Positions 1,944-45,328 of a DNA stretch of 64,000 nt are shown here, in pieces. The stretch's first letter is position 1, and each line of letters opens with the position of its first letter. This DNA comes from Saccharothrix sp. NRRL B-16314 (GTDB lineage: Bacteria > Actinomycetota > Actinomycetes > Mycobacteriales > Pseudonocardiaceae). The notes beneath the pieces were generated by a model. That model worked only from the letters and a program-made list of their open reading frames with translations, was not told where the DNA came from and made no database searches. Made by a program: the position numbers and the translations under genes. The DNA is taken from the NCBI RefSeq assembly GCF_000716595.1, contig NZ_JNXC01000003.1, positions 535,384 through 599,383 of the forward strand, in the 5' to 3' direction.

Positions 1944-2017
1944 GCCCCCGTAGCCCAATCGGCAGAGGCAGCGGACTCAAAATCCGTCCAGTGTGCGTTC
2001 GAGTCGCACCGGGGGCA
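1944..2017 (+). tRNA. tRNA with CAA (Leu) anticodon and short variable loop
   Basis: A 74-nt cloverleaf can be drawn: acceptor GCCCCCG/CGGGGGC with discriminator A, anticodon stem GCGGA/TCCGT with loop CTCAAAA (anticodon CAA, reading UUG), and T-stem GTGCG/CGCAC with TTCGAGT loop. CCA is not encoded. The D-arm looks leucine-type (three GC pairs, a non-pairing C13/A22, loop AATCGGCAG). The variable region is only 5 nt, whereas normal tRNA-Leu has a long variable arm. Leucine is the straightforward call; the short variable arm is flagged separately. Confidence 0.85.
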
Positions 2018-7749: not shown

Positions 7750-10497
7750 ATGCGCGGTGATCGCGGAGCGGCGGCCGGTTACGACGCGTTCATGTCGTAC
7801 AGCCACGCGCACGACGGCAGGCTGGCGCCGCTGTTCCAGCGCGAGGTGGAGCGGTTCGCCAAGCGGTGGAACCAGAGCCGGGCGCTGCGGGTGTTCCGGG
7901 ACGACGCGAACCTCGTCGCGAGCGCCGCCCTGTGGCCCTCGATCGTCGCGGCGATGTCCGCGTCCCGGTGGTTCGTGCTGATGGCGTCACCCGACGCGGC
8001 GAGGTCGCCGTGGGTGGACGCCGAGGTCGCGTGGTGGCTGGAGCACCGGTCGGTCGACACCCTGCTGATCGTGGTCACGGCGGGTGACGTCGTGTGGGGG
8101 CCTGGTGGCGTCGACCGGACGGCTTCCACGGCGCTGCCGCCGTCGCTGGTGGCGGCGCTCGCGGTGGAACCGCGGTGGGTCGACCTGCGCGCCCTGGACA
8201 CCGCCGAGGAGGTCGACTGGGCCGATCCGCGGTTGCAGGACCGGGTGGCCGACGTCGCCGGCGCGATCCGCGGTGTCTCGAAGGACGCCGTCGTCGGCGA
8301 GCACGTCCGGCAGCACCGGCGCACCATGCGACTGGCCCGCGGCGGCGCGACCGCGTTGGCCGTGCTGCTGGTCGCGGCCCTGGTCGCCGCGGCCGTGGCG
8401 GTGTGGCAGAACCGGGAGGCCACCCGGCAGGCTCGGATCGCCACCGCACGGCAGTTGGCCGCCACCGCGCTGTCCGAAGTGGACAACCAGCTCGACCTCG
8501 CGCAGCTCCTGGCGGTCGAGGCGCACCGGATGAGCCCCGACGACCCGCAGACGCGGGCGGCGCTGTTCCAGGTGTTCGCCGCGAGCCCGTACCTGAAGCG
8601 GCACCGGCAGGTCGGCCGTCCGGTGAGCGTGATCGGCGGCGGGGAGTCCGTCGCGGTCGCGGGCACGGCGGACGGGCACCTCGTGCGCTGGGACGTGCGG
8701 GACGACCGGACCACGTCCACCGCGGTCGGGGAACGGGCCGTCACCGCGGTGGCCGCATCCGACGACGGTGGGGTGATCGCGGCGGCCGACGGCACCACCG
8801 TGGTCTTGTGGCGCGGCGACGACGGGAAACCCGAGCAGGTCTTCGAGGGCGCGGCGAGCGGCGTGGCCGTGTCACCGTCCGGGAAGACCGTAGCGGTGGT
8901 GGGAGGCGACGCGCCCTTCGACGACGGACCGTTGCCGCTGGTGGTGGTCGACGGGGCCACTGGTGCCGAACTCCGGCGCACCACCCTCCCCTCCGCGCCC
9001 GGCCACCTCGCGCTGCCCGACGACAAGACCCTGATGATCAGCACGGGCGCCGGCTCGTGGCAGCGACGGGCGGTGGCGGACTTCCGCCCACTCGGGGACT
9101 CCGAGACCGGTGCCGGCACCCCTGCGGCTTCCTTCTGCTGCGGCTACTCCCGCAACGGCGCGTACTTCGCCTGGTCGAAGTTCGCGGACTTCCACGTCCA
9201 CCCCCAGTCCACCACTCCGGACCGCGGCGTCCTCGCCGGCTCGTCGCTGCCCATCGAGGAGCCGGAAGAGTTCGCGGTGAGCAACGACGGCAAGATGCTC
9301 GCGGCGGCGGGCGGCGAAGTCCTCTACGTGCAGGGGAACCTGCGGCGACCGATCCCGCAACGGCTGCCGGGCGCGGGCCGGGTCACCGGGCTCACGTTCC
9401 TCGACGCCGAGCGGCTGGTGTCCGGCAGCGGGTCCGCGCTGATCCTGTGGGACCTCACGCAGGTCTCCCGGGCGTTGGCGGGCCCGCCGAGCGCCGCGCC
9501 CGACTCCAGCAACGCGGGTCCGCCGCCGAGGGTGGCGCTGTCACCGGACGGCCGGTGGGTGGCGAGCGCCGGTGAGGGCGAGGACGTGCTCGTCCACGAT
9601 GTCGCCGAACAGCGGGACCTGCCCGTCCAGCACGCGGTGCCGAACGCGCTGCCGGTGTGGTCGGCGGACAGCCGGACGCTGGTGCTGCTGGGCGACGACG
9701 GCGGGCACGACGCGACCCTGTGGTCGGAAGGCGGCGCCTACCGGGGCTGGCCGCGGCAGGTCGGGGGCCGGGTCTTCGCCGCCGCCGCTTCGCCCGACGG
9801 GCGGTCCCTGGTCTCGGTCGGAGAGGCGGGGGTCGTGGAGCGTGACCCGGCCGACGGCGACGTCCGGCTGCACGTGGCCGTCGAGGGCCTGGCCGAGGGC
9901 GGGGGATCGGAGCGGCAGTGGACGGCGTCCGTCCGGCCGGACGCCGGGTTCGCGGCCGTGATCGACGGGAACGGGTCGGTGCACGTCGTCGACGTCGAGG
10001 CTGAGGAGAGCCGGGTGCTCCCGCGGGCCGGCGCGAACGCCGTCACCTACGGACCGGACCACCTGGTGGTGCAGTACGAGGACTCCGGCATCGAGGTGTG
10101 GAACGCGGACGCGTCCGAACGGCTGCGCGTCGAAGCCGCCGACGCGGGCTACCAGCGCGCGATGGCGGTGGTGGCCGAGCACGGCCTGCTGGCCAGGATC
10201 ACCGCGCAGGGCACGGTCGTGCTGTCCGATGTGGCCACCGGCGGACCGCTCGGCGTCGTGGCCCTGCCCATGCCGGAGCGGTCGACCGGCGCGCCGCCGT
10301 GGGGCTCCACCACGGTCGTGGCCGGTGGTCGCGGCCTCGCCACCGCCACGTCGTCCGGCGCGGTGGTCCGGTGGGAACCGGACCCGGCCCGGTGGCGCGG
10401 TTCCGCGTGCGCCACCGCCGGCCGGGACCTGACCGCCGACGAGTGGCGCGGCTACGTGGACCTCGACCCGCCGGAAAACCTCGACTGCGCAAGGTGA
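7750..10497 (+). CDS. Membrane-anchored TIR-domain protein with C-terminal beta-propeller
   Basis: A 915-aa protein. Residues 11-175 form a TIR-type domain: YDAFMSYSHAHD is box 1, and SPWVDAEVAWW carries Glu92 at the position of the catalytic glutamate of TIR NADases. One membrane helix follows at about 197-218 (ATALAVLLVAALVAAAVAVW). A coiled segment with ARQLAATAL repeats leads to roughly 600 residues of WD40/PQQ-like blades (SPDGRWVASAG, SPDGRSLVSVG, WDVRDD). The TIR and N-terminus should be cytosolic, which would put the propeller outside if the single helix is the only one. Such fusions are frequent in actinomycetes; the function is not established. Signalling or NAD+-based defence is plausible. 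Start ATG 7750 is preferred over upstream codons, with a weak ribosome site. Confidence 0.75.
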   Translation: MRGDRGAAAGYDAFMSYSHAHDGRLAPLFQREVERFAKRWNQSRALRVFRDDANLVASAALWPSIVAAMSASRWFVLMASPDAARSPWVDAEVAWWLEHRSVDTLLIVVTAGDVVWGPGGVDRTASTALPPSLVAALAVEPRWVDLRALDTAEEVDWADPRLQDRVADVAGAIRGVSKDAVVGEHVRQHRRTMRLARGGATALAVLLVAALVAAAVAVWQNREATRQARIATARQLAATALSEVDNQLDLAQLLAVEAHRMSPDDPQTRAALFQVFAASPYLKRHRQVGRPVSVIGGGESVAVAGTADGHLVRWDVRDDRTTSTAVGERAVTAVAASDDGGVIAAADGTTVVLWRGDDGKPEQVFEGAASGVAVSPSGKTVAVVGGDAPFDDGPLPLVVVDGATGAELRRTTLPSAPGHLALPDDKTLMISTGAGSWQRRAVADFRPLGDSETGAGTPAASFCCGYSRNGAYFAWSKFADFHVHPQSTTPDRGVLAGSSLPIEEPEEFAVSNDGKMLAAAGGEVLYVQGNLRRPIPQRLPGAGRVTGLTFLDAERLVSGSGSALILWDLTQVSRALAGPPSAAPDSSNAGPPPRVALSPDGRWVASAGEGEDVLVHDVAEQRDLPVQHAVPNALPVWSADSRTLVLLGDDGGHDATLWSEGGAYRGWPRQVGGRVFAAAASPDGRSLVSVGEAGVVERDPADGDVRLHVAVEGLAEGGGSERQWTASVRPDAGFAAVIDGNGSVHVVDVEAEESRVLPRAGANAVTYGPDHLVVQYEDSGIEVWNADASERLRVEAADAGYQRAMAVVAEHGLLARITAQGTVVLSDVATGGPLGVVALPMPERSTGAPPWGSTTVVAGGRGLATATSSGAVVRWEPDPARWRGSACATAGRDLTADEWRGYVDLDPPENLDCAR

Positions 10498-17707: not shown

Positions 17708-19372
17708 TCAGCCGGCGGAGCAGGTGGGCGACATGCCCGTGCCCGATCCGGTGGCCTGGTAGCCGAACTCGACCGACTGCCCGGCCGCGATCGAACCGTT
17801 GTAGCTGACGTTCGTGAACTCGACCGCGCCGCTGGTGCCGCTGCGGTTGACGTTCCACGAGTTGGTGATGGTCGCGCCGGACGGGAGGGTCATGGCGACT
17901 TTCCAGCCGTTGACCGGTGCGGAGCCGGCGGTGACGCGCACCGTGGCGACGAAGCCGCCCGTCCACTGGTTGATCGCCGCCGACGCCGTGCAGCCACCGT
18001 TCGGCGAGCTGGTCGTGGTGGTGGTTGTGGTCGTCGTTGTGGTCGTGGCCGTGGTTGTCGTGGTGGTGTCGCTGCTGGTGGTGGTGGATGTCGTGGTGGT
18101 GGTTCCGTCGGTGAGGGTGGGGGTTTGCCAGGTGCGCCATTGGGCGAGGTTGCCGGCGGCTTTGGCGGAGATGCGGATGGTGCCGGTGGCGGTGCCGGTC
18201 TTGTGGAGGAATTTCTGGATGTTCTGTTGGAGGGGGGTGCGCCATTCGGGTCGGTTGGCGCAGTGGCTGCCGTCGGCGACGTCGGACCAGTAGGTGATGT
18301 TGGCGCCGGCGCCGAGTGCTTTGTATACCTCTGCGCCGCCGAGGGCGGCGACGCTGGCGGAGCGGGGGCCGAGGTTGGCGATGTGGGGGTTGTCCATGAT
18401 GAACAGGCCGCGGGGGGCGACCATGGCGACGAGTTGGTGGGTGTCGAGGGGGGTGGTGTTGGGGTTGGTGGTGTAGGGGCTGAAGGCGTCGCCGAACCAG
18501 GGTTGTTCGCCGTAGGCGCTGGTGAGGCTTTGGGCGCCTTCGCCGGGGATGCCGCGGTAGATGGGTGCGCCGGCGGTGCCGGATTCGATGGGCATGGTCA
18601 GGGCGATGCGTTGGTCGAAGACGCCGACGGCGAAGGCGCCTTTGCCGAAGCGGGAGCAGCCGGTGACGCCGACGGCGTCGGCTTTGAGGGTGGTGCCGCC
18701 GGAGGTCTCGATGACGTCGATGATGCGGCTGACGCCCCAGGACCAGGCCATGAGCAGGCCGGTGGTGCTGGTGTTGCCGTAGACGCTGTAGAAGGCGCCT
18801 TGTTTGTTGTTGCGGGGGGTGCCTTCGCGGCCCACGGCGTAGGGGTCGTAGTTGATGACGGCGGCGCCGGCGGCTTTGATGGCGGCGGTGTCGGCGCCGA
18901 AGCCGCCCAGCACGACGACGGCGGGGAAGGGCCCGGTGCCGGACGGCAGTTCGACCTTGGCGGAGAAGCTGCTGCTGCGGCCGTTGTGGGAGACGTTGAC
19001 GGTGATGTTGCTGCCGGACACGGTGCCGGTGACGGTGGAGGGTTTGGCCGGTTTGTCGCCGTAGACGTGCCGTTCGGCAAGTTCCCGGATCTCCGCCCGC
19101 CGGCACCGCCAGTCCGACTTGCTCGTGATCCGCGACCCGTTCAGCTTCGTGAACGGGTCGGGCAGTTGCGAGTTCGACGGGAACGACCCCGGCAACGACA
19201 CCGGGCAGTCCGCCCCGTCGTCCTCGACACCCGCGGCGGCGACACCCACCCCCGCCGCCACCGCGGAGTCGGAAATCGCTATCGCGGTCAGCGTTCCGGC
19301 GAGCGTGAGCGCCGCGACCGCCAGCATGGCAGCCGTCGAACGGATCTTGGAGCGGCCCGAGCTGATGTCCAC
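17708..19372 (-). CDS. Secreted glucuronoyl esterase (CE15) with Thr-rich linker and CBM2
   Basis: A 554-aa exported enzyme. After the signal peptide (about 40 residues) the CE15 hydrolase domain (about 60-415) carries the nucleophile in GCSRFGKGA, an acidic residue in MPIESG and the histidine in DGSHCANR. A linker of about 35 residues, mostly threonine, leads to a C-terminal CBM2 (GGCTASAAINQW... to the end), which binds cellulose or xylan. CE15 enzymes cleave ester bonds between lignin alcohols and 4-O-methylglucuronate of xylan. GTG 19372 follows GAAGGAGAG and is preferred to upstream codons that overlap the neighbouring gene. It fits functionally with the adjacent GH43 operon. Confidence 0.88.
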   Translation of the reverse strand: MDISSGRSKIRSTAAMLAVAALTLAGTLTAIAISDSAVAAGVGVAAAGVEDDGADCPVSLPGSFPSNSQLPDPFTKLNGSRITSKSDWRCRRAEIRELAERHVYGDKPAKPSTVTGTVSGSNITVNVSHNGRSSSFSAKVELPSGTGPFPAVVVLGGFGADTAAIKAAGAAVINYDPYAVGREGTPRNNKQGAFYSVYGNTSTTGLLMAWSWGVSRIIDVIETSGGTTLKADAVGVTGCSRFGKGAFAVGVFDQRIALTMPIESGTAGAPIYRGIPGEGAQSLTSAYGEQPWFGDAFSPYTTNPNTTPLDTHQLVAMVAPRGLFIMDNPHIANLGPRSASVAALGGAEVYKALGAGANITYWSDVADGSHCANRPEWRTPLQQNIQKFLHKTGTATGTIRISAKAAGNLAQWRTWQTPTLTDGTTTTTSTTTSSDTTTTTTATTTTTTTTTTTTSSPNGGCTASAAINQWTGGFVATVRVTAGSAPVNGWKVAMTLPSGATITNSWNVNRSGTSGAVEFTNVSYNGSIAAGQSVEFGYQATGSGTGMSPTCSAG

Positions 19373-19878
19373 GGGTGCTCTCCTTCCGAGTGCGTGGGCG
19401 TGACCAGGCGGCGTCGATCGATGATCACTGAGGGCGAATGACCTAAAGTTTCGGTCGATTGAACGAAACATGGCAATGCCGCCATCCGCGCACCCGGTCT
19501 CACTTGGCCCACCCCCGTGAGTCCTACGTTCACGCCCCGTGAGTCGTACCTACAGAACACCCGTGTCCTACGTTCAGAACCCCCGAGTTCAACGCTCAGT
19601 ACAAGATCGATGGTGGCGGCGAAACGGCCGGGCCGGTCGTACTCGGGGAACGCGGGCGTGGCGCGTTCGTAGGCACGCGCGCTGCGCATCGGACGCACGG
19701 GCCGGCCGGCGACCAGCCAGATCAGCGACCCGACCAGCGGGAAGAACAGCACGATCAGCAGCCAGCCGACCTTCGGCAGGTTCCGCGCGTCACCGTCGTC
19801 GGTGGTGATGACGTCGATCAGGCAGAACAGCCACAGGCCGAGCGTGAGAAGGCCGAAGAAGCCACCGAAGTACAGCAT
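19288..19878 (-). CDS. PLDc_N (phospholipase D nuclease N-terminal) membrane protein, C-terminus rewritten by a repeat element
   Basis: The first ~90 residues are a PLDc_N-type membrane protein: two hydrophobic helices (FGLLTLGLWLFCLIDVI and VGWLLIVLFFPLVGSLIWLV) and then RPVRPMRSARAYERATPAFPEYDRPGRFAAT. Relatives continue with a short charged tail. Here the frame enters the dispersed repeat at 19599 and then reads about 100 residues of low-quality sequence, overlapping the start of the CE15 gene by 85 bp. The natural 3' end seems lost. The protein may still insert in the membrane, but the tail is probably junk. PLDc_N is a short membrane module with no known catalysis. Confidence 0.55.
   Translation of the reverse strand: MLYFGGFFGLLTLGLWLFCLIDVITTDDGDARNLPKVGWLLIVLFFPLVGSLIWLVAGRPVRPMRSARAYERATPAFPEYDRPGRFAATIDLVLSVELGGSERRTRVFCRYDSRGVNVGLTGVGQVRPGARMAALPCFVQSTETLGHSPSVIIDRRRLVTPTHSEGEHPWTSARAAPRSVRRLPCWRSRRSRSPER
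19448..19469. promoter_or_regulatory. Candidate operator upstream of CE15 gene
   Basis: A 22-bp palindrome, GTTTCG...CGAAAC, with 9 of 11 symmetric pairs, 76 bp upstream of the esterase GTG. It differs from the LacI-type sites of the GH43 operon, so another repressor is implied. Confidence 0.45.
19512..19599 (+). repeat. Dispersed modular repeat, single copy (locus A)
   Basis: Three 22-23-nt units built on CCCGTGAGTCCTACGTTCA are followed by a distinct end unit CGAGTTCAACGCTCAG. The same order of units occurs twice, inverted, at 42535-42739. The end unit abuts, and appears to have replaced, the 3' end of the PLDc_N gene. Confidence 0.75.
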
Positions 19879-39945: not shown

Positions 39946-41745
39946 ATGGCTTCGCAAGAGGTGCTGCGAAGGATTTTCGGGTACGAGTCCTTCCGCGGGG
40001 AGCAGCAGGACATCGTCGACCACGTCATCACGGGCGGCGATGCGCTGGTGCTCATGCCCACCGGGGGTGGGAAGTCGCTGTGCTACCAGATCCCCTCCCT
40101 GGTGCGCGACGGCACGGGCGTCGTCATCTCGCCGTTGATCGCGTTGATGCAGGACCAGGTGGACGCCCTGCGCGACCTCGGCGTGCGCGCCGGGTTCCTC
40201 AACTCCACCCAGTTCCCGGACGAGCGCGCGCTGGTCGAGGCCGAGTTCCTGGCCGGCGAGCTCGACCTCCTCTACCTCGCACCCGAACGCCTCCGCACCG
40301 AGCAGACCACCCGCCTGCTGGAGCGCGGCAAGATCGCCCTCTTCGCCATCGACGAGGCGCACTGCGTCTCCCAGTGGGGCCACGACTTCCGCCCCGAGTA
40401 CCTCGCCCTCTCCCACCTGCACGAACGGTGGCCGGAGGTGCCCAGGATCGCGCTCACCGCGACCGCGACCCAGGCCACCCACGCCGAGATCGCCGAACGC
40501 CTCCGGCTCGGTGACGCGAAGCACTTCGTCGCCAGCTTCGACCGGCCGAACATCCAGTACCGGATCGTGCCCAAGAACGAGCCGAAGAAGCAGCTGCTGG
40601 AACTGCTCCGCACCGAGCACAAGGGCGACGCGGGCATCGTCTACTGCCTGTCCCGCAACTCGGTGGAGAAGACCGCCGAGTTCCTCACCCAGAACGGCAT
40701 CCCGGCGCTGCCCTACCACGCGGGCCTCGACTCGGGCACGCGTGCGCGCAACCAGTCCCGGTTCCTGCGCGAGGACGGTCTCGTGATGGTCGCCACCATC
40801 GCTTTCGGCATGGGCATCGACAAGCCGGACGTGCGGTTCGTCGCGCACCTCGACCTGCCGAAGTCCGTGGAGGGCTACTACCAGGAGACGGGCCGCGCGG
40901 GCCGGGACGGGCTGCCGTCCACCGCCTGGCTGGCGTACGGGCTCCAGGACGTCGTCCAGCAGCGCAAGATGATCGACGACTCCGAGGGCGACCAGCAGCA
41001 CCGCCGCAAGCTCATGGCCCACCTCGACGCGATGCTCGCGCTGTGCGAGACGGTCGAGTGCCGTCGCGTTCGGTTGCTCGACTACTTCGGCCAGTCCGGC
41101 ACTCCGTGCGGCAACTGCGACACGTGCCTCGTGCCGCCGGAGACGTGGGACGGCACGGTGGCGGCGCAGAAGGTGCTGTCCACGGTGGTGCGGTTGCGCA
41201 ACGAGCGGCGGCAGAAGTTCGGGGCGGGGCAGACGATCGACATCCTGCTCGGCCGCAAGACGGCGAAGGTCATCCAGCACGACCACGACCAGCTGAAGGT
41301 GTTCGGCATCGGCACCGAGCTGAACGAGAGCGGCTGGCGCGGGGTGGTCCGGCAGCTGCTGGCGCAGGGGCTGATCGCGGTGGAGGGCGAGTACTCGACG
41401 CTCGTCGTCACGCCGGGCAGCGACGAGGTGCTGTACCAGGGGCGCAAGGTGCTGATGCGGCGTGAGCCGGAGCGCCTGGCCAAGGTGAAGACCGCGAAGA
41501 GCACGGCGGCGCAGGTGGAGCTGAGTGCCGAGGCGACTCCGGTGTTCGAGCGGCTGCGGGCGTGGCGCGCGGCGACGGCCAAGGAGCAGGGCGTCCCGGC
41601 CTACGTGATCTTCCACGACGCGACGCTGCGGCAGATCGCCACGTCCGGGCCGTCGACGTTGGACGAGCTGGGCACCGTCAACGGCGTCGGTGAGAACAAG
41701 CTGGCGAAGTACGGGCAGCAGATTTTGGACACGTTGAGCGCATGA
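39946..41745 (+). CDS. recQ: ATP-dependent DNA helicase RecQ
   Basis: A 599-aa superfamily-2 helicase. Walker [17 protein letters not shown] box [25 protein letters not shown] and the arginine-finger region [12 protein letters not shown] are intact. The RQC zinc site has four Cys (ETVEC ... [10 protein letters not shown]), followed by a winged helix and a C-terminal HRDC domain ([23 protein letters not shown]). It unwinds forks and recombination intermediates 3'-5'. The pentapeptide-repeat gene overlaps its stop by four bases. Confidence 0.95.
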
Positions 41746-42527
41746 ACGACCTCCGCGCCGACTGCTCGCGTTGCTTCGCTTTGTGCTGCGTGGTGCCCGC
41801 GTTCGCCAAGTCGGTGGACTTCGCGATCGACAAACCGGCCCGCACGCCGTGCCGGAACCTGCTCGCGGACTTCGGCTGCGGCATCCACTCGAAGCTGCGG
41901 GAGACCGGGTTCACCGGCTGCACTGTGTACGACTGCTTCGGTGCGGGCCAGCAGGTGGCGCAGGTGACGTTCGGCGGCACGAGCTGGCGTGACGACCCGG
42001 CGTCGGCGGCGGCCATGTTCGACGTGTTCCCGGTGATGCGGCAGCTGCACGAGCTGCTCTGGTACCTGACCGAGGTGCAGTCCCTGGAGAAGGCCCGCGC
42101 ACTGCACCCCGCCGCCCGTGACCTCGCGGCGAAGATCGAAGCGCTCACCGCCGGCACCTCCGAGGAGCTGCTGGCCCTGGACGTCGGCCCGTACTGGGAG
42201 CAGGCGAACGCGGTGCTGCTGAAGGCGAGCGAGCTGACCCGGGGCAAGGGCAAGAACCGCCGTGGCGCGGACCTGATCGGCAAGGACCTGAAGGGCGCGA
42301 ACCTGCGGGCGTCCAACCTGCGCGGTGCGTACCTGATCGGCGCCGACCTCCGCGGGGCGGACCTGCGGCTGGTGGACTTCATCGGCACCGACCTGCGTGG
42401 CGCCGACCTCTCCGACGCCGACCTGACCGGCGCGTTCTTCCTCACCCAGGCCCAGGTGGACGCGGCCAAGGGCACGCGCACCACCAGACTTCCCGCCACC
42501 CTCACCCACCCTTCCCCCTGGCCCTAA
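41742..42527 (+). CDS. Pentapeptide-repeat protein with N-terminal CxxCxxxCC (YkgJ-like) domain
   Basis: A 261-aa protein. The N-terminus CSRCFALCC is the CxxCxxxCC metal-chelating motif of YkgJ-type proteins, with more Cys in [13 protein letters not shown] and GCTVYDC. After a helical middle, about 14 pentapeptide repeats (A[DN]Lx[21 protein letters not shown]) form a right-handed helix. ATG 41742 overlaps the recQ stop, implying a partnership with RecQ or shared expression. Pentapeptide proteins can mimic DNA and bind gyrase, but the metal domain makes another role possible. Confidence 0.75.
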
Positions 42528-42534
42528 CCCCACG

Positions 42535-42739
42535 CGCCCGTGAGCCCTACCTCCACTCCGCGTGAGTCCTACATTCAGAACACCCGTGTCCTACGTTCAC
42601 GTACCCCGAGTTCAACGCTCAGAACGGCCAGAGCCGGCCGACCTTGTCCTGAGCGTTGAATTCGGGGGTCCCGAACGTAGGACTCACGCGTTCGGAAGGT
42701 AGGACTCACGGGGCGTGAACGTAGGACTCACGCGGAGTG
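42535..42739. repeat. Dispersed modular repeat, inverted pair (locus B)
   Basis: Left copy 42535-42622 has three GTGAGTCCTAC-type units of 22-23 nt and the end unit CGAGTTCAACGCTCAG. Right copy 42649-42739 is the same in reverse (CTGAGCGTTGAATTCG first, then GTAGGACTCACG units). A 26-bp GC-rich centre (42623-42648) separates them. The whole could fold into a very long hairpin. It fills the gap between the pentapeptide gene and the next membrane-protein gene. Confidence 0.8.
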
Positions 42740-42806
42740 GGGTACGTCGGGGGGCGTAGGCGGGGGAGCCGCTGTCGGGCGGACGCGGTGAGGGTGTGGG
42801 ACGGGA

Positions 42807-42819: not shown

Positions 42820-43260
42820 ATGAAACCGAGAGTGCGGAAGTCGTGGCTGTTGCTGCACGTCATCACGTCCGTCGGCTGGCTCGGCGTCACGATCGGGATG
42901 CTCGTGCTCGCACTGGCGGCGTTCGACGCGCCGCAGCTCTACCAGGCCATGTCACTGCTCGGCGACCTCGTCGTGCTGCCGCTCGCGCTCACCGCGCTGG
43001 CCACCGGCGTCGTCCTGTCCCTCGGCACGAAGTGGGGCCTGGTGAAGTACCGCTGGGTGCTGGTGAAGTTCGTGCTGACCGTCATCGCCGTGATCGCGAC
43101 GACGTTCTCCCTGCGCTCCGGCCTGCACGAGGCGGCAGCCGGAGCGGTCGCCACGGCCGGCCCGGACGTCCTGGTGGCCTGCTGCGTGTCCCTCACCCTC
43201 TACACCTTCAACACCGTGCTGTCGGTGTTCAAGCCATGGGGTCGGACCCGGTGGGGCTGA
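42820..43260 (+). CDS. Four-helix membrane protein, DUF2269-like
   Basis: A 146-aa integral membrane protein with four helices: SWLLLHVITSVGWLGVTIGMLVLAL, LVVLPLALTALATGVVLSL, VLVKFVLTVIAVIATTF and VLVACCVSLTLYTFNTVLSVF. A conserved KPRVRKSWLLLHV start and YRWVLVKF between helices 2 and 3 fit the DUF2269-like set. No function is known. Its 3' end overlaps the convergent NACHT gene by 32 bp. Confidence 0.65.
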   Translation: MKPRVRKSWLLLHVITSVGWLGVTIGMLVLALAAFDAPQLYQAMSLLGDLVVLPLALTALATGVVLSLGTKWGLVKYRWVLVKFVLTVIAVIATTFSLRSGLHEAAAGAVATAGPDVLVACCVSLTLYTFNTVLSVFKPWGRTRWG

Positions 43261-45328
43261 GGCCGGCACGCCGCCGCTCGACGGTCGCCGCCACCTCCAC
43301 CGGATCGCACGACGCGAGGTGGTCGCGGACCAGGTCGTGCGGGAACCGGTGCTCGTCGACCAACAGCACCCGGTCCCGCGCGGACTGGAGAATCGCCTTG
43401 CGCCCCAACGGGAACTCGTCCAGCGCCAACGGTCGCGCGAGCAACCCCGCCACCGGGTCGAACGGCCGGTTCACGACAGGCGCCACCGCCAGCCCGAGCA
43501 GCACGCCGGTCACCGCGCCCAACGCCGAAGGGCGAACCGCGGCACCCGCGAGCGCCGCCGACCCCACCCCGACCAATCCCGCCACCGGCAACCAGCGCAG
43601 CCCGATCGCGCCCCGCGTGTGCAGACCGGCCCACACGCCGCGCAGACCGCCGATGAACGCACCCGCCACCGCCCCCGACGCCAGCCCGATCCCGAGGCCG
43701 ACCGGCAGGTCCGAACCCGGCCCCGTCACCACCATCACCCCGACCGGCACCAACGCGCACGCCAACGCCCAGTACCGGTCACGCGTGTTGCCGTAGGCGA
43801 CGAGCAGCGCGACCACGACGACCACCCCGTACCCGACCGCCGGAGGCCATCCCGGGACGAGCGCACCGAGCAGCCCACCCAGCAAGGCCACGACACCGGT
43901 GATCAACACCCCGGCCACGAAACCCGTTACCGCCCAACGCCTTCCGCGCCGGACATCACCACGAACCGCGATGAACGCACTGCGCGGCACGCCGACCGTG
44001 GCGACAGCGGTGACGGCAGCCGCCACCAGACCGAGCCGCACCCCGACCACGAAGCACAACGCGGTCGCCGCACCCGCCAGCGCACCCGGCGCGGCCCGCC
44101 CGAACAGCCGCCACACCACGTCCGTCCCGACGAAGTCCAGCCACACCTCCCGCGACGGCAACCGGGACCGCGCCTGGAGATCACCCCGACGCCGGGCGAT
44201 CCGGGCCAGGAACCGCAAAGCCCGCACCAAGCGCTCCGAACCGGAGGAACCGGAAGTGCCGGGAGAGCCGGAAGCGCCGGAACGACCAGGAGAGCCGGGA
44301 GAACCAAGAGAGCCCGCAGAGCCGTGAGAGCCGGAAGTGCCGGAGGGGTCACGCGCTACCGACTCCACCAGATACGTGTCCAGCACACCCCGGTACTCCG
44401 CACGCCCCGCCCGGTACGCCAGCGCCAGCAGTCCGAACGCGAGCGGTGTCCGCACTTCGTCCCACAGCTCCGGGTCCTTCTCCAGAGCCTCGCGCAACCC
44501 GTCCAACCGCGGCGCACAAGCCGTGATCAGGTCCAGGACCTCGTTGCGCCCCAACGGATCCACCCGAACCACATCACAACGAGGCAAGTGCCGGTGCTCA
44601 TCGCCCGCACCGCACAGCACGACCTCCCGCAGCTTCAACGCGGTGATCCAGGCCAGGCACTCCACCCGGTCGGCCGGGGACAGGTCGTCCAGCCCGTCGA
44701 ACAACAGCACGAGGTTGCCCTGCCGCAGCCACACCCGCCCCAGCCGCGCCCCGATCCGGTACCGCGACGACAACACCCGCAGCAGCCACTCGCCGAAGTC
44801 GTCGTCCCGCTGCCACCCGCCCAGGTCCACCACCACCGGCACGGGCAGGCTCAGGTCCTGCCGCGCCCGAGCCGCCAACGTCTCCGCGAGCGACAGCAGC
44901 AAAGCCGTCTTCCCGGAGCCGGGTTCGCCCACCACGACCAACGGGTGACGGATGCGCGTGGGCAACCGCGGCCCCACCCGTGGCACGACACCGAGCTTCA
45001 GCCGCACCTGCTCGGCCAACGAACCGTCCACTCGCGCCCGCACGAAACGTTCCACCCGGTCCAGCGCCGCCCGCCGGTTGGCCGGGTGCGAAGGACGCCG
45101 TCGCAGCACAAGCGCGCGAAGCGGTTCCCACGCGGCGAGGCACACGGTGAGCGCGGACAACACGGCCAGCGCTGCCCACAACCACGGCGCGTAAGGGCCG
45201 AGCACCCGCAGCGCCGACCCACCCGTGACCAGGTTGACCGCGACGGGGACGAGCACGAGGAACGTCACCGCGCCCAGCCCGGTCAGCGCGATCAGGCGGG
45301 AGGTGCGGCCGAGCCGTCGCGCGTCCAT
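43229..45328 (-). CDS. Membrane NACHT-type STAND NTPase with Gly/Ser repeat linker
   Basis: A 699-aa protein. Two N-terminal membrane helices (about 12-35 and 46-67) precede the NTPase: Walker A GEPGSGKT at 134-141 and the NACHT-type Walker B LVLLFDGLDD at 206-215. A flexible Ser/Gly/Pro linker (329-364) separates it from about 11-12 further hydrophobic helices in the C-terminal 300 residues. NACHT ATPases oligomerise on ligand sensing; bacterial ones include antiphage proteins. The multi-helix C-terminus would make this a membrane effector or sensor. ATG 45328 follows GGAGGGGG. No partner gene is evident. Confidence 0.75.
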   Translation of the reverse strand: MDARRLGRTSRLIALTGLGAVTFLVLVPVAVNLVTGGSALRVLGPYAPWLWAALAVLSALTVCLAAWEPLRALVLRRRPSHPANRRAALDRVERFVRARVDGSLAEQVRLKLGVVPRVGPRLPTRIRHPLVVVGEPGSGKTALLLSLAETLAARARQDLSLPVPVVVDLGGWQRDDDFGEWLLRVLSSRYRIGARLGRVWLRQGNLVLLFDGLDDLSPADRVECLAWITALKLREVVLCGAGDEHRHLPRCDVVRVDPLGRNEVLDLITACAPRLDGLREALEKDPELWDEVRTPLAFGLLALAYRAGRAEYRGVLDTYLVESVARDPSGTSGSHGSAGSLGSPGSPGRSGASGSPGTSGSSGSERLVRALRFLARIARRRGDLQARSRLPSREVWLDFVGTDVVWRLFGRAAPGALAGAATALCFVVGVRLGLVAAAVTAVATVGVPRSAFIAVRGDVRRGRRWAVTGFVAGVLITGVVALLGGLLGALVPGWPPAVGYGVVVVVALLVAYGNTRDRYWALACALVPVGVMVVTGPGSDLPVGLGIGLASGAVAGAFIGGLRGVWAGLHTRGAIGLRWLPVAGLVGVGSAALAGAAVRPSALGAVTGVLLGLAVAPVVNRPFDPVAGLLARPLALDEFPLGRKAILQSARDRVLLVDEHRFPHDLVRDHLASCDPVEVAATVERRRAGLSPTGSDPMA
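44237..44344. repeat. In-frame 9-nt minisatellite coding the Gly/Ser linker
   Basis: Roughly twelve imperfect 9-nt units (on the + strand CCGGAAGTG, CCGGGAGAG and similar) encode the SGTSGS...SGSSGS linker of the NACHT protein. Unit length divisible by three keeps the frame when copy number changes. Confidence 0.7.

Follow-up and report, generated by a model that had tools for sequence, protein, structure and literature searches.

Polar repeat arrays at the 3' ends of genes in Saccharothrix sp. NRRL B-16314 and other Pseudonocardiaceae, with a candidate role in transcription termination

The described repeats closest to the arrays reported here are the REP/BIME sequences and the neisserial DNA uptake sequences (DUS). 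According to the available text of PMC2817692, REP/BIME elements usually occur in more than 100 copies, mainly extragenic and often as pairs of opposite orientation, and have been reported to facilitate Rho-dependent termination. DUS, in the accessible portion of PMC3630211, are 10-mers (12 with two flanking bases) that are common inside genes; they form lineage dialects around a core, and their inverted pairs are associated with terminators. In the Beggiatoaceae, TAACTGA heptamers form abundant intergenic direct-repeat sets for which a role at the RNA level has been proposed (PMC4679880, available part). Satellites of Amycolatopsis mediterranei are given in PMC6749651, the accessible text of which contains neither '21 bp' nor '22 bp'. 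In the parts available of other papers the word 'repeat' is absent (PMC3469384), no relevant term occurs (PMC3733652), or the repeats mentioned are island inverted repeats and assembly repeats only (PMC4210621). We found no description of such stop-anchored arrays in the open-licence PMC literature, where the string GTGAGTCCTAC appeared only in papers unrelated by title.

The arrays share with REP/BIME a high copy number (437 units), an extragenic position (one of 134 arms lies in a gene) and facing pairs, but their repeat is direct and non-palindromic with a period of 21-22 nt, and they carry a distal end unit and are anchored to stop codons. Membership of the REP/RAYT group was rejected, as the three arms tested fold like their shuffles and this genome has no PF01797 RAYT-type gene. 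Like DUS they have a lineage-specific spelling around a core and inverted pairs, although their units, three or more per array, keep a fixed period and polarity and only that one arm is intragenic. The Beggiatoaceae heptamers lie mostly upstream of start codons in the text available, whereas here units of 21-22 nt follow stops. The strong hairpin of the focal pair, and the arrays found at one site (site C, below) in the place of a hairpin in relatives, recall intrinsic terminators; however, a single arm folds like its shuffles and the focal hairpin has no T-run. For a Rho-dependent terminator a long, unstructured RNA rich in C and poor in G would be expected after the stop; the RNA of the arms is weakly structured, with C 0.326 and G 0.257 (0.35 and 0.32 elsewhere). 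As with MITEs or other non-autonomous transposons, whole elements are copied and empty sites exist, but no clear terminal inverted repeat with target duplication was seen and ten genomes have just one arm at one of the elements (el1). REP/BIME and DUS each resemble the arrays in part, but a defining feature of each fails here, and the polar arm of direct repeats, with its dedicated last unit and its stop anchoring, looks like an undescribed kind of gene-end element.

The focal element and a second copy

The window, a stretch of 64,000 nt, contains the focal element at 42535-42739 and a second copy at 19512-19599. The features are as follows.

41742..42527, + strand: upstream gene, encoding a pentapeptide-repeat protein (PF00805), which ends at the element (Pfam scan, ORF list)
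42525..42527, + strand: TAA stop codon of the upstream gene, inside a CTAACC motif that often precedes arms (sequence)
42538..42625, + strand: left arm, three GTGAGTCCTAC-type 22-nt units followed by the distal unit CGAGTTCAACGCTCAG at 42607-42622 (sequence)
42604..42667, no strand: the two distal units with the centre, able to form a long hairpin on either strand (folding)
42623..42648, no strand: 26-nt centre; a near-identical reversed centre is found in L052:15141-15332 (sequence, alignment)
42646..42733, - strand: right arm, distal unit CGAATTCAACGCTCAG and three exact units, facing the start of the next gene (sequence)
42742..42759, + strand: leftover of the old end of the upstream gene (GTACGTCGG...GCGTAG), severed by the element (alignment with empty sites)
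42820..43260, + strand: downstream gene, 146 aa from the ATG at 42820 (sequence)
19512..19599, + strand: second copy, a single arm with half a pair centre up to about 19612; its unit side faces a gene start (sequence)

The head-to-head inverted pair of a modular repeat proposed in an earlier sequence-only reading is real, with a register of 22 nt, and its two arms of three units and an end unit face one another across a 26-nt centre, as read from the letters and located by script. In the left arm the unit at 42540 is GTGAGCCCTAC, with one mismatch, that at 42562 is exact and that at about 42584 is the degenerate CCGTGTCCTAC; the right arm has its distal unit at 42649-42664 on the minus strand and exact units at 42677, 42699 and 42721. 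While the order of units claimed for each arm stands, the end unit is not quite invariant, since the right arm spells it CGAATTCAACGCTCAG. The pair in L052 matches the focal pair in reversed orientation with 88.7% identity over 195 nt, and the alignment with G000:C2:15140-15334, again in reverse, gives 89% over 195 nt.

The core at 42604..42667 folds with -42.7 and -43.9 kcal/mol (z -8.56 and -7.55 against shuffles), and no T-run is read behind this hairpin. The left arm as RNA (42536-42625) gives -14.0 kcal/mol with a z of -0.12. All three arms of the window, taken as arms and not as isolated units, fold no better than shuffles (z -0.12, -1.25 and -0.96), the arm at 19510-19602 among them. 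Besides the gene ends, frames of 39-68 aa overlap the focal element, but nothing marks any of them as a gene; as 22 is also no multiple of three, a coding role of the repeat was rejected. At gathering score, Rfam matches only a tRNA in the window (1944-2017) and not the repeat. The ORF list starts the frame of the downstream gene at the GTG at 42796 instead, and no Pfam match was obtained for this gene (region scanned, 42823-43257). Convergent with this gene is a minus-strand gene (43232-45328) for a NACHT-domain protein with a collagen-like stretch.

The second copy repeats the unit order of the focal arms, as had been claimed. Directly behind it, by eye, lies roughly one half of a pair centre (TACAAGATCGATG, also seen in L084), so that the copy looks like a truncated pair. 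A PLDc_N gene (PF13396; 19288-19878, minus strand) appears to read into this array, and since its frame enters the truncated array the C-terminus of the protein may derive from repeat sequence. Nearby, at 17708-19471 on the minus strand, are a glucuronyl-esterase domain (PF22244) and a cellulose-binding domain.

Copying, polarity and attachment to stop codons

That the repeat is not random, and that further copies exist, was confirmed genome-wide: the 8.93-Mb genome (G000; 273 contigs, 98.97% complete) holds 437 exact GTGAGTCCTAC units against 0 for a reversed control, and 204 end units with at most two mismatches against 3. Their arrangement was read in 60 stretches of about 20 kb which, with the window, make 61 (1.26 Mb); these were picked around the first listed sites and are element-rich by design, so that they inform on arrangement and not on per-genome rates. 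The script found 92 clusters, of which 88, with 134 arms, pass the arm filter. The four dropped are L045:19241, L079:8434 and L088:11655, which are chance-like, and L068:7336, apparently genuine but with no unit other than a diverged one. Single arms make up 42 of the 88 clusters (a few with a lone opposite unit that does not pass) and two-arm clusters the other 46. Within a search that allowed steps of 21 or 22 nt only, the step is 22 nt in 371/380 cases in G000 and 21 nt in 123/123 in G006, a genome of another genus. Units abut at 22 nt with no spacers; a CRISPR array was rejected, as the units are contiguous and unique spacers are absent. The arms are richer in A+T (0.417) than the sequence overall (0.291), with C at 0.326 and G at 0.257; in arrays of other loci C is 0.35 and G 0.32.

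Aligned by eye, the end unit proves to be a variant form of the repeat itself, GAGTyC.ACGyTCAG, with GAGTTC and GAATTC spellings. With identical arrays counted once, chains below 55% mean neighbour identity dropped and only 21- or 22-nt steps admitted, a T occupies position 5 of the GAGTC word in 3/135 first, 7/245 middle and 130/135 last units of G000. The relatives in the genus give 0/50, 3/102 and 46/50 at syntenic loci, and G006 gives 2/47, 27/76 and 45/47. The rule is weaker in the small loci from other genera (9/39, 21/78 and 23/39).

Gene calls came from a codon model that had been trained on the sampled stretches and that misses some small genes, such as PLDc_N at about 19620-19878. 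With these calls one arm of 134 lies inside a gene, one at an edge and 132 are intergenic. A gene on the same strand ends on the unit side in 108 of the 132, compared with about 44% for random oriented intergenic points, while 24 face a gene start, including the copy at 19512 and the focal right arm. Among the 108 after-stop arms, 83 are within 15 nt of the stop or hold it (53 begin 2-15 nt past it and 30 contain it) and the remaining 25 are 24-180 nt away. The gene's stop is the TGA of unit 1, 2 or 3 in 24, 5 and 1 arms, respectively; as 22 leaves a remainder of 1 on division by 3, the TGA shifts by one frame from each unit to the next. The clusters have 48 convergent, 37 tandem and 1 divergent setting, with 1 at an edge and 1 in a gene (n = 88), compared with 128 convergent, 421 tandem and 202 divergent among all gaps of at least 30 nt (n = 751). 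In convergent gaps with an array, less than 25 nt of other sequence is left in 29/47. Pairs are head-to-head in 40 cases (25 convergent, 15 tandem) and tail-to-tail in 6. In tandem gaps, which reach 767 nt, 13 of 17 paired after-stop arms hold the stop or begin no more than 15 nt from it, their partner arms being 22-567 nt from the gene start, and single arms follow a stop in 14 cases and point toward a start in 6.

The stop before an arm is TAA in 34/53 cases compared with 67/1089 genes in G000, and in 13/29 compared with 39/317 in G006. CTAACC is found within 30 nt of 36/134 arms, where about 0.001 per arm is expected, and it precedes 4/30 arrays that hold the gene's stop compared with 3/1163 gene ends. 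This suggests that the motif is brought along by the element. It accompanies 34/109 after-stop arms but only 2/24 start-facing arms, however, so selection for TAA is also possible.

The copying of the element as a whole, claimed earlier, is borne out by a comparison of the 41 clusters with units on both strands. Pairs recur in either orientation, the best whole-pair match being 97% over 175 nt (L071:16966 and L072:9882), with another of 95% over 200 nt, and 925 of 1311 alignments of at least 150 nt extend less than 6 nt beyond the array at the left end, the only end counted. Pair centres (n = 40) measure 15-17 nt in 20, 25-27 nt in 14, 36-61 nt in 5 and 13 nt in 1, and by eye centre sequence is common within a length class. 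The arms are less alike within pairs (identity 0.821) than between pairs (0.851), with 2000/2000 permutations reaching the within-pair mean, and maintenance of a hairpin by co-change of the two arms was rejected on this comparison. Perhaps long perfect palindromes are unstable, which would fit the lower likeness within the 40 head-to-head pairs. The basic unit is the polar arm and not the pair; it is tied to stop codons, and its spelling varies by lineage.

Per nucleotide, sense arms fold with -0.242 kcal/mol (n = 125), antisense arms with -0.310 and the 83 nt after ordinary stops with -0.407 (n = 331). The weak folding of arms is largely a matter of composition (lower GC), since the tested arms fold like shuffles. 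An apparent depletion of hairpins at arrays (9/47 compared with 49/81 convergent gaps) was dropped, as no length class was significant.

Orthologous sites and spelling across the family

Orthologous sites were compared in 24 relatives of the genus, a subset being read at each site. At the focal site G000, G060 and G061 have the array and 16 counted genomes do not: nine read on both flanks (G059, G065, G069, G070, G072, G074, G077, G071 and G079) and seven on the left flank only (G056, G063, G064, G073, G075, G076 and G078). The count leaves out G068 (L372, none seen) and G057, G058, G062, G066 and G067. The pentapeptide gene is five codons longer (CACTGG/GTACGTCGGCAGGCGTAG) in G059, G065, G069, G070, G072, G074 and G077, the empty sites with which the remnant at 42742..42759 was aligned, and ends differently in G071 and G079. 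In the filled genomes the gene stops at the TAA just 5' of the array and its old tail survives downstream. No clear terminal inverted repeat with target duplication was found at the aligned empty sites, where edges are ambiguous, with a possible TGG at the focal site.

At site C (L071:16966; 11 relatives) arrays are present in G000, G059 and G061, that of G061 being a single-unit palindrome. Of the nine array-free genomes (G060, G063, G064, G067, G069, G070, G072, G073 and G074), eight have by script a hairpin of 12-18 bp in the interval bounded by the same two stops; in G064 the corresponding hairpin is broken and fails the script. Since G060 has the focal array and the site-C hairpin and G059 the reverse, gains or losses at the two sites were separate. 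At site A/B (9 relatives) arrays are found in G000 and eight relatives, G060 with a one-unit form, while G062 has a 16-bp hairpin. Between one arm and the array pair of this site G000 carries about 530 nt with an ORF (L071:2335-2862); this stretch is absent in the nine relatives fetched, and alignments pass through it in G061 and G065. Arrays are thus present at sites that are empty or hairpin-bearing in relatives.

A single arm makes up el1 (L098:6706) in ten genomes, several with another spelling; four have none and G079 is diverged. Arrays are likewise present at el2 (L098:13121) in ten genomes (G074 in a one-to-two-unit form) and absent in 11, with G079 diverged, and at el3 (L098:15849) they are present in G000, G071 and G075 and absent in G057, G061, G066 and G068, G065 being unreadable. 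Spelling and unit number differ at the same place, with GAGTGTCGAACGCTCAG in G069, GTGTCCAACGTTCAG in G071 and GTGTCCTCCACTC in G075. A conserved hairpin is kept beside the arrays in eight of the ten array-bearing genomes at el2, and in G000 hairpins of 16 and 13 bp lie between gene and array at el1 and el3, all of which argues against a simple replacement of hairpin by array.

The spelling of G000 itself occurs in 12 of 390 genomes of the family. A less strict pattern of three GAGT words spaced by 21-22 nt matches 209/390, many just a few times, and by a tally of the table about 74/390, in 14 genera, have at least 20 matches and at least four times the reversed control; long arrays yield several matches each, and anchoring was checked in G000, G006 and stretches of about ten others. 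High counts are seen in Amycolatopsis acididurans (207, control 0), Pseudonocardia terrae (174, control 8), Prauserella muralis (88, control 20) and Lentzea sp. NBRC 105346 (53, control 4), and low ones in A. bullii (6, control 1) and Amycolatopsis sp. CA-128772 (7, control 2); the genus members G069 (30, control 35) and G075 (34, control 9) fall under the cut. From other families, with one genome each, Streptomyces gives 2 matches, Kribbella 1 and Nocardia flavorosea 9, and Actinomadura, Virgisporangium, Phytohabitans and Modestobacter give 0. Unit spellings include GAGTCGCCCCTCCAGGCAAGT (21 nt, G006), GAGTCGTACSTTCCCGTCGCGC (22 nt, G041) and GAGTCCAACGCCCAGAACCCGC (22 nt, G043), and in Prauserella a 21-nt array behind recQ has a last unit starting GAGTTC.

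Of the 42 arrays in G006 that have a neighbour, 38 come after a stop, which 27 of them contain or trail by at most 13 nt; four more arrays are at edges. With duplicates removed, arrays in loci L273-L349, which take in G006 and one stretch of the genus member G064, follow a stop in 70 cases, face a start in 13 and lie in a gene in 1. Both stop anchoring and the distal-unit rule hold in this second genus (G006). An unusual expansion is seen in G226 (genus g23), which has 760 matches genome-wide and one array of 21 units (L333:747-1182). In a class-wide sample of 394 genomes only G635 (86) and G675 (71) reach 20 matches outside the family; both belong to one other family, have other unit spellings and may represent an independent or a related array system.

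Possible roles of the arrays

The elements are copied whole, are anchored to stops and change spelling by lineage while the distal unit is kept. Our leading reading, which we hold tentatively and would not yet call probable, is that they are copied polar arrays at gene 3' ends that most likely aid transcription termination, a candidate role. An arm would start at the stop codon and run 5' to 3' with its gene, usually as two to four 22-nt units and one distal unit; copies may have been spread and homogenised by recombination (gene conversion), a putative transposase or both. The weakly structured arm in the 3' untranslated RNA could then provide a track on which a termination factor, be it a sequence-specific protein or Rho, loads or binds, and where two arms face each other a hairpin may be added that serves both convergent genes. 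Polarity, stop anchoring, the distal rule, the hairpins that array-free genomes have at site C, the little other sequence left in convergent gaps with an array, weak sense folding and the focal hairpin favour termination, and the transcription-stopping structure suggested by the sequence-only reading agrees, as a putative role, with the attachment to stop codons. Against it are the 42 of 88 clusters that consist of one arm, single arms having no hairpin, the hairpins kept at el2 and those between gene and array at el1 and el3, the 24 of 132 start-facing arms, the weaker distal rule in small loci of other genera, the hairpin depletion that is gone after length matching, the unmatched arms within pairs and a C content that barely exceeds G. 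A broader proposal appears unlikely as a whole: that the arrays are a family-wide gene-end signal of the Pseudonocardiaceae, in which the shifting preference of a sequence-specific factor drives the dialects, the signal supplants hairpin terminators gene by gene and recombination keeps it uniform.

It is quite possible, though on balance doubtful, that the arrays are dispersed selfish repeats that do nothing for the host; gene conversion or a putative transposase would spread them, and they would persist mainly at the 3' ends of genes, where an insertion does no harm, the TGA of a unit or the CTAACC edge supplying the stop. Whole-pair copies, presence that varies site by site among close species (G060 and G059), stops inside units 1, 2 and 3, CTAACC near arms and at stop-holding arrays, and arrays added next to kept hairpins at el2 in 8/10 genomes would all be expected of such repeats, whereas selfish spread alone does not account for the single direction and close stop attachment of arms in long tandem gaps, for the distal unit kept in a second genus or for the el1 arrays of ten genomes, several in another spelling. 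Of the earlier proposal of a non-autonomous mobile unit, the copying stands but no partner was found: PF01797 (Y1 transposase), the only transposase family searched, is absent from the 98.97% complete draft of G000 although present in 5/25 genomes of the genus, G061 included, and there was no plasmid or phage match at E 1e-5. The constant register (371/380 at 22 nt; 123/123 at 21 nt in G006) could reflect, in line with the protein-binding array of the sequence-only reading, a sequence-specific protein that covers units of 21-22 bp, about two helical turns, on DNA and blocks RNA polymerase or organises the chromosome, the spelling tracking its specificity. The grouping of centre lengths around 16, 26 and 37 nt, in steps of roughly one helical turn, fits this idea, as would a unit conservation that seems above the needs of loose Rho loading, but centre classes share sequence by eye, so the spacing may be ancestry, and chromosome organisation needs no coupling to the stop of the coding strand; we consider it improbable. 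Least credible, and very improbable, is a DNA-uptake or recombination signal kept by transformation bias: DUS do resemble the arrays in having dialects around a common core and inverted pairs close to terminators, but in the accessible text of PMC3630211 DUS are short and commonly intragenic, in contrast to fixed-period arrays with 1/134 arms in a gene.

If the arrays end transcripts, a bacterial family would have evolved a modular, polar gene-end signal with species-specific spelling, which would bear on termination in GC-rich actinomycetes and on the concerted change of hundreds of dispersed non-coding elements; if they are selfish, they would be an unusually polar repeat that supplies stop codons. 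The dialects offer a handle for finding the factor.

Two further arrangements were observed at these gene ends. At el2 and its orthologues, facing arrays enclose the conserved hairpin in several species, giving the layout stop-array-hairpin-array-stop. In G078 and G073, where el1 and el2 hold no array, another kind of repeat, self-complementary and some 150-250 nt long, lies at or near the same gene ends (L218:1257-1498 and 8212-8446; L217:7919-8087 and 8370-8519).
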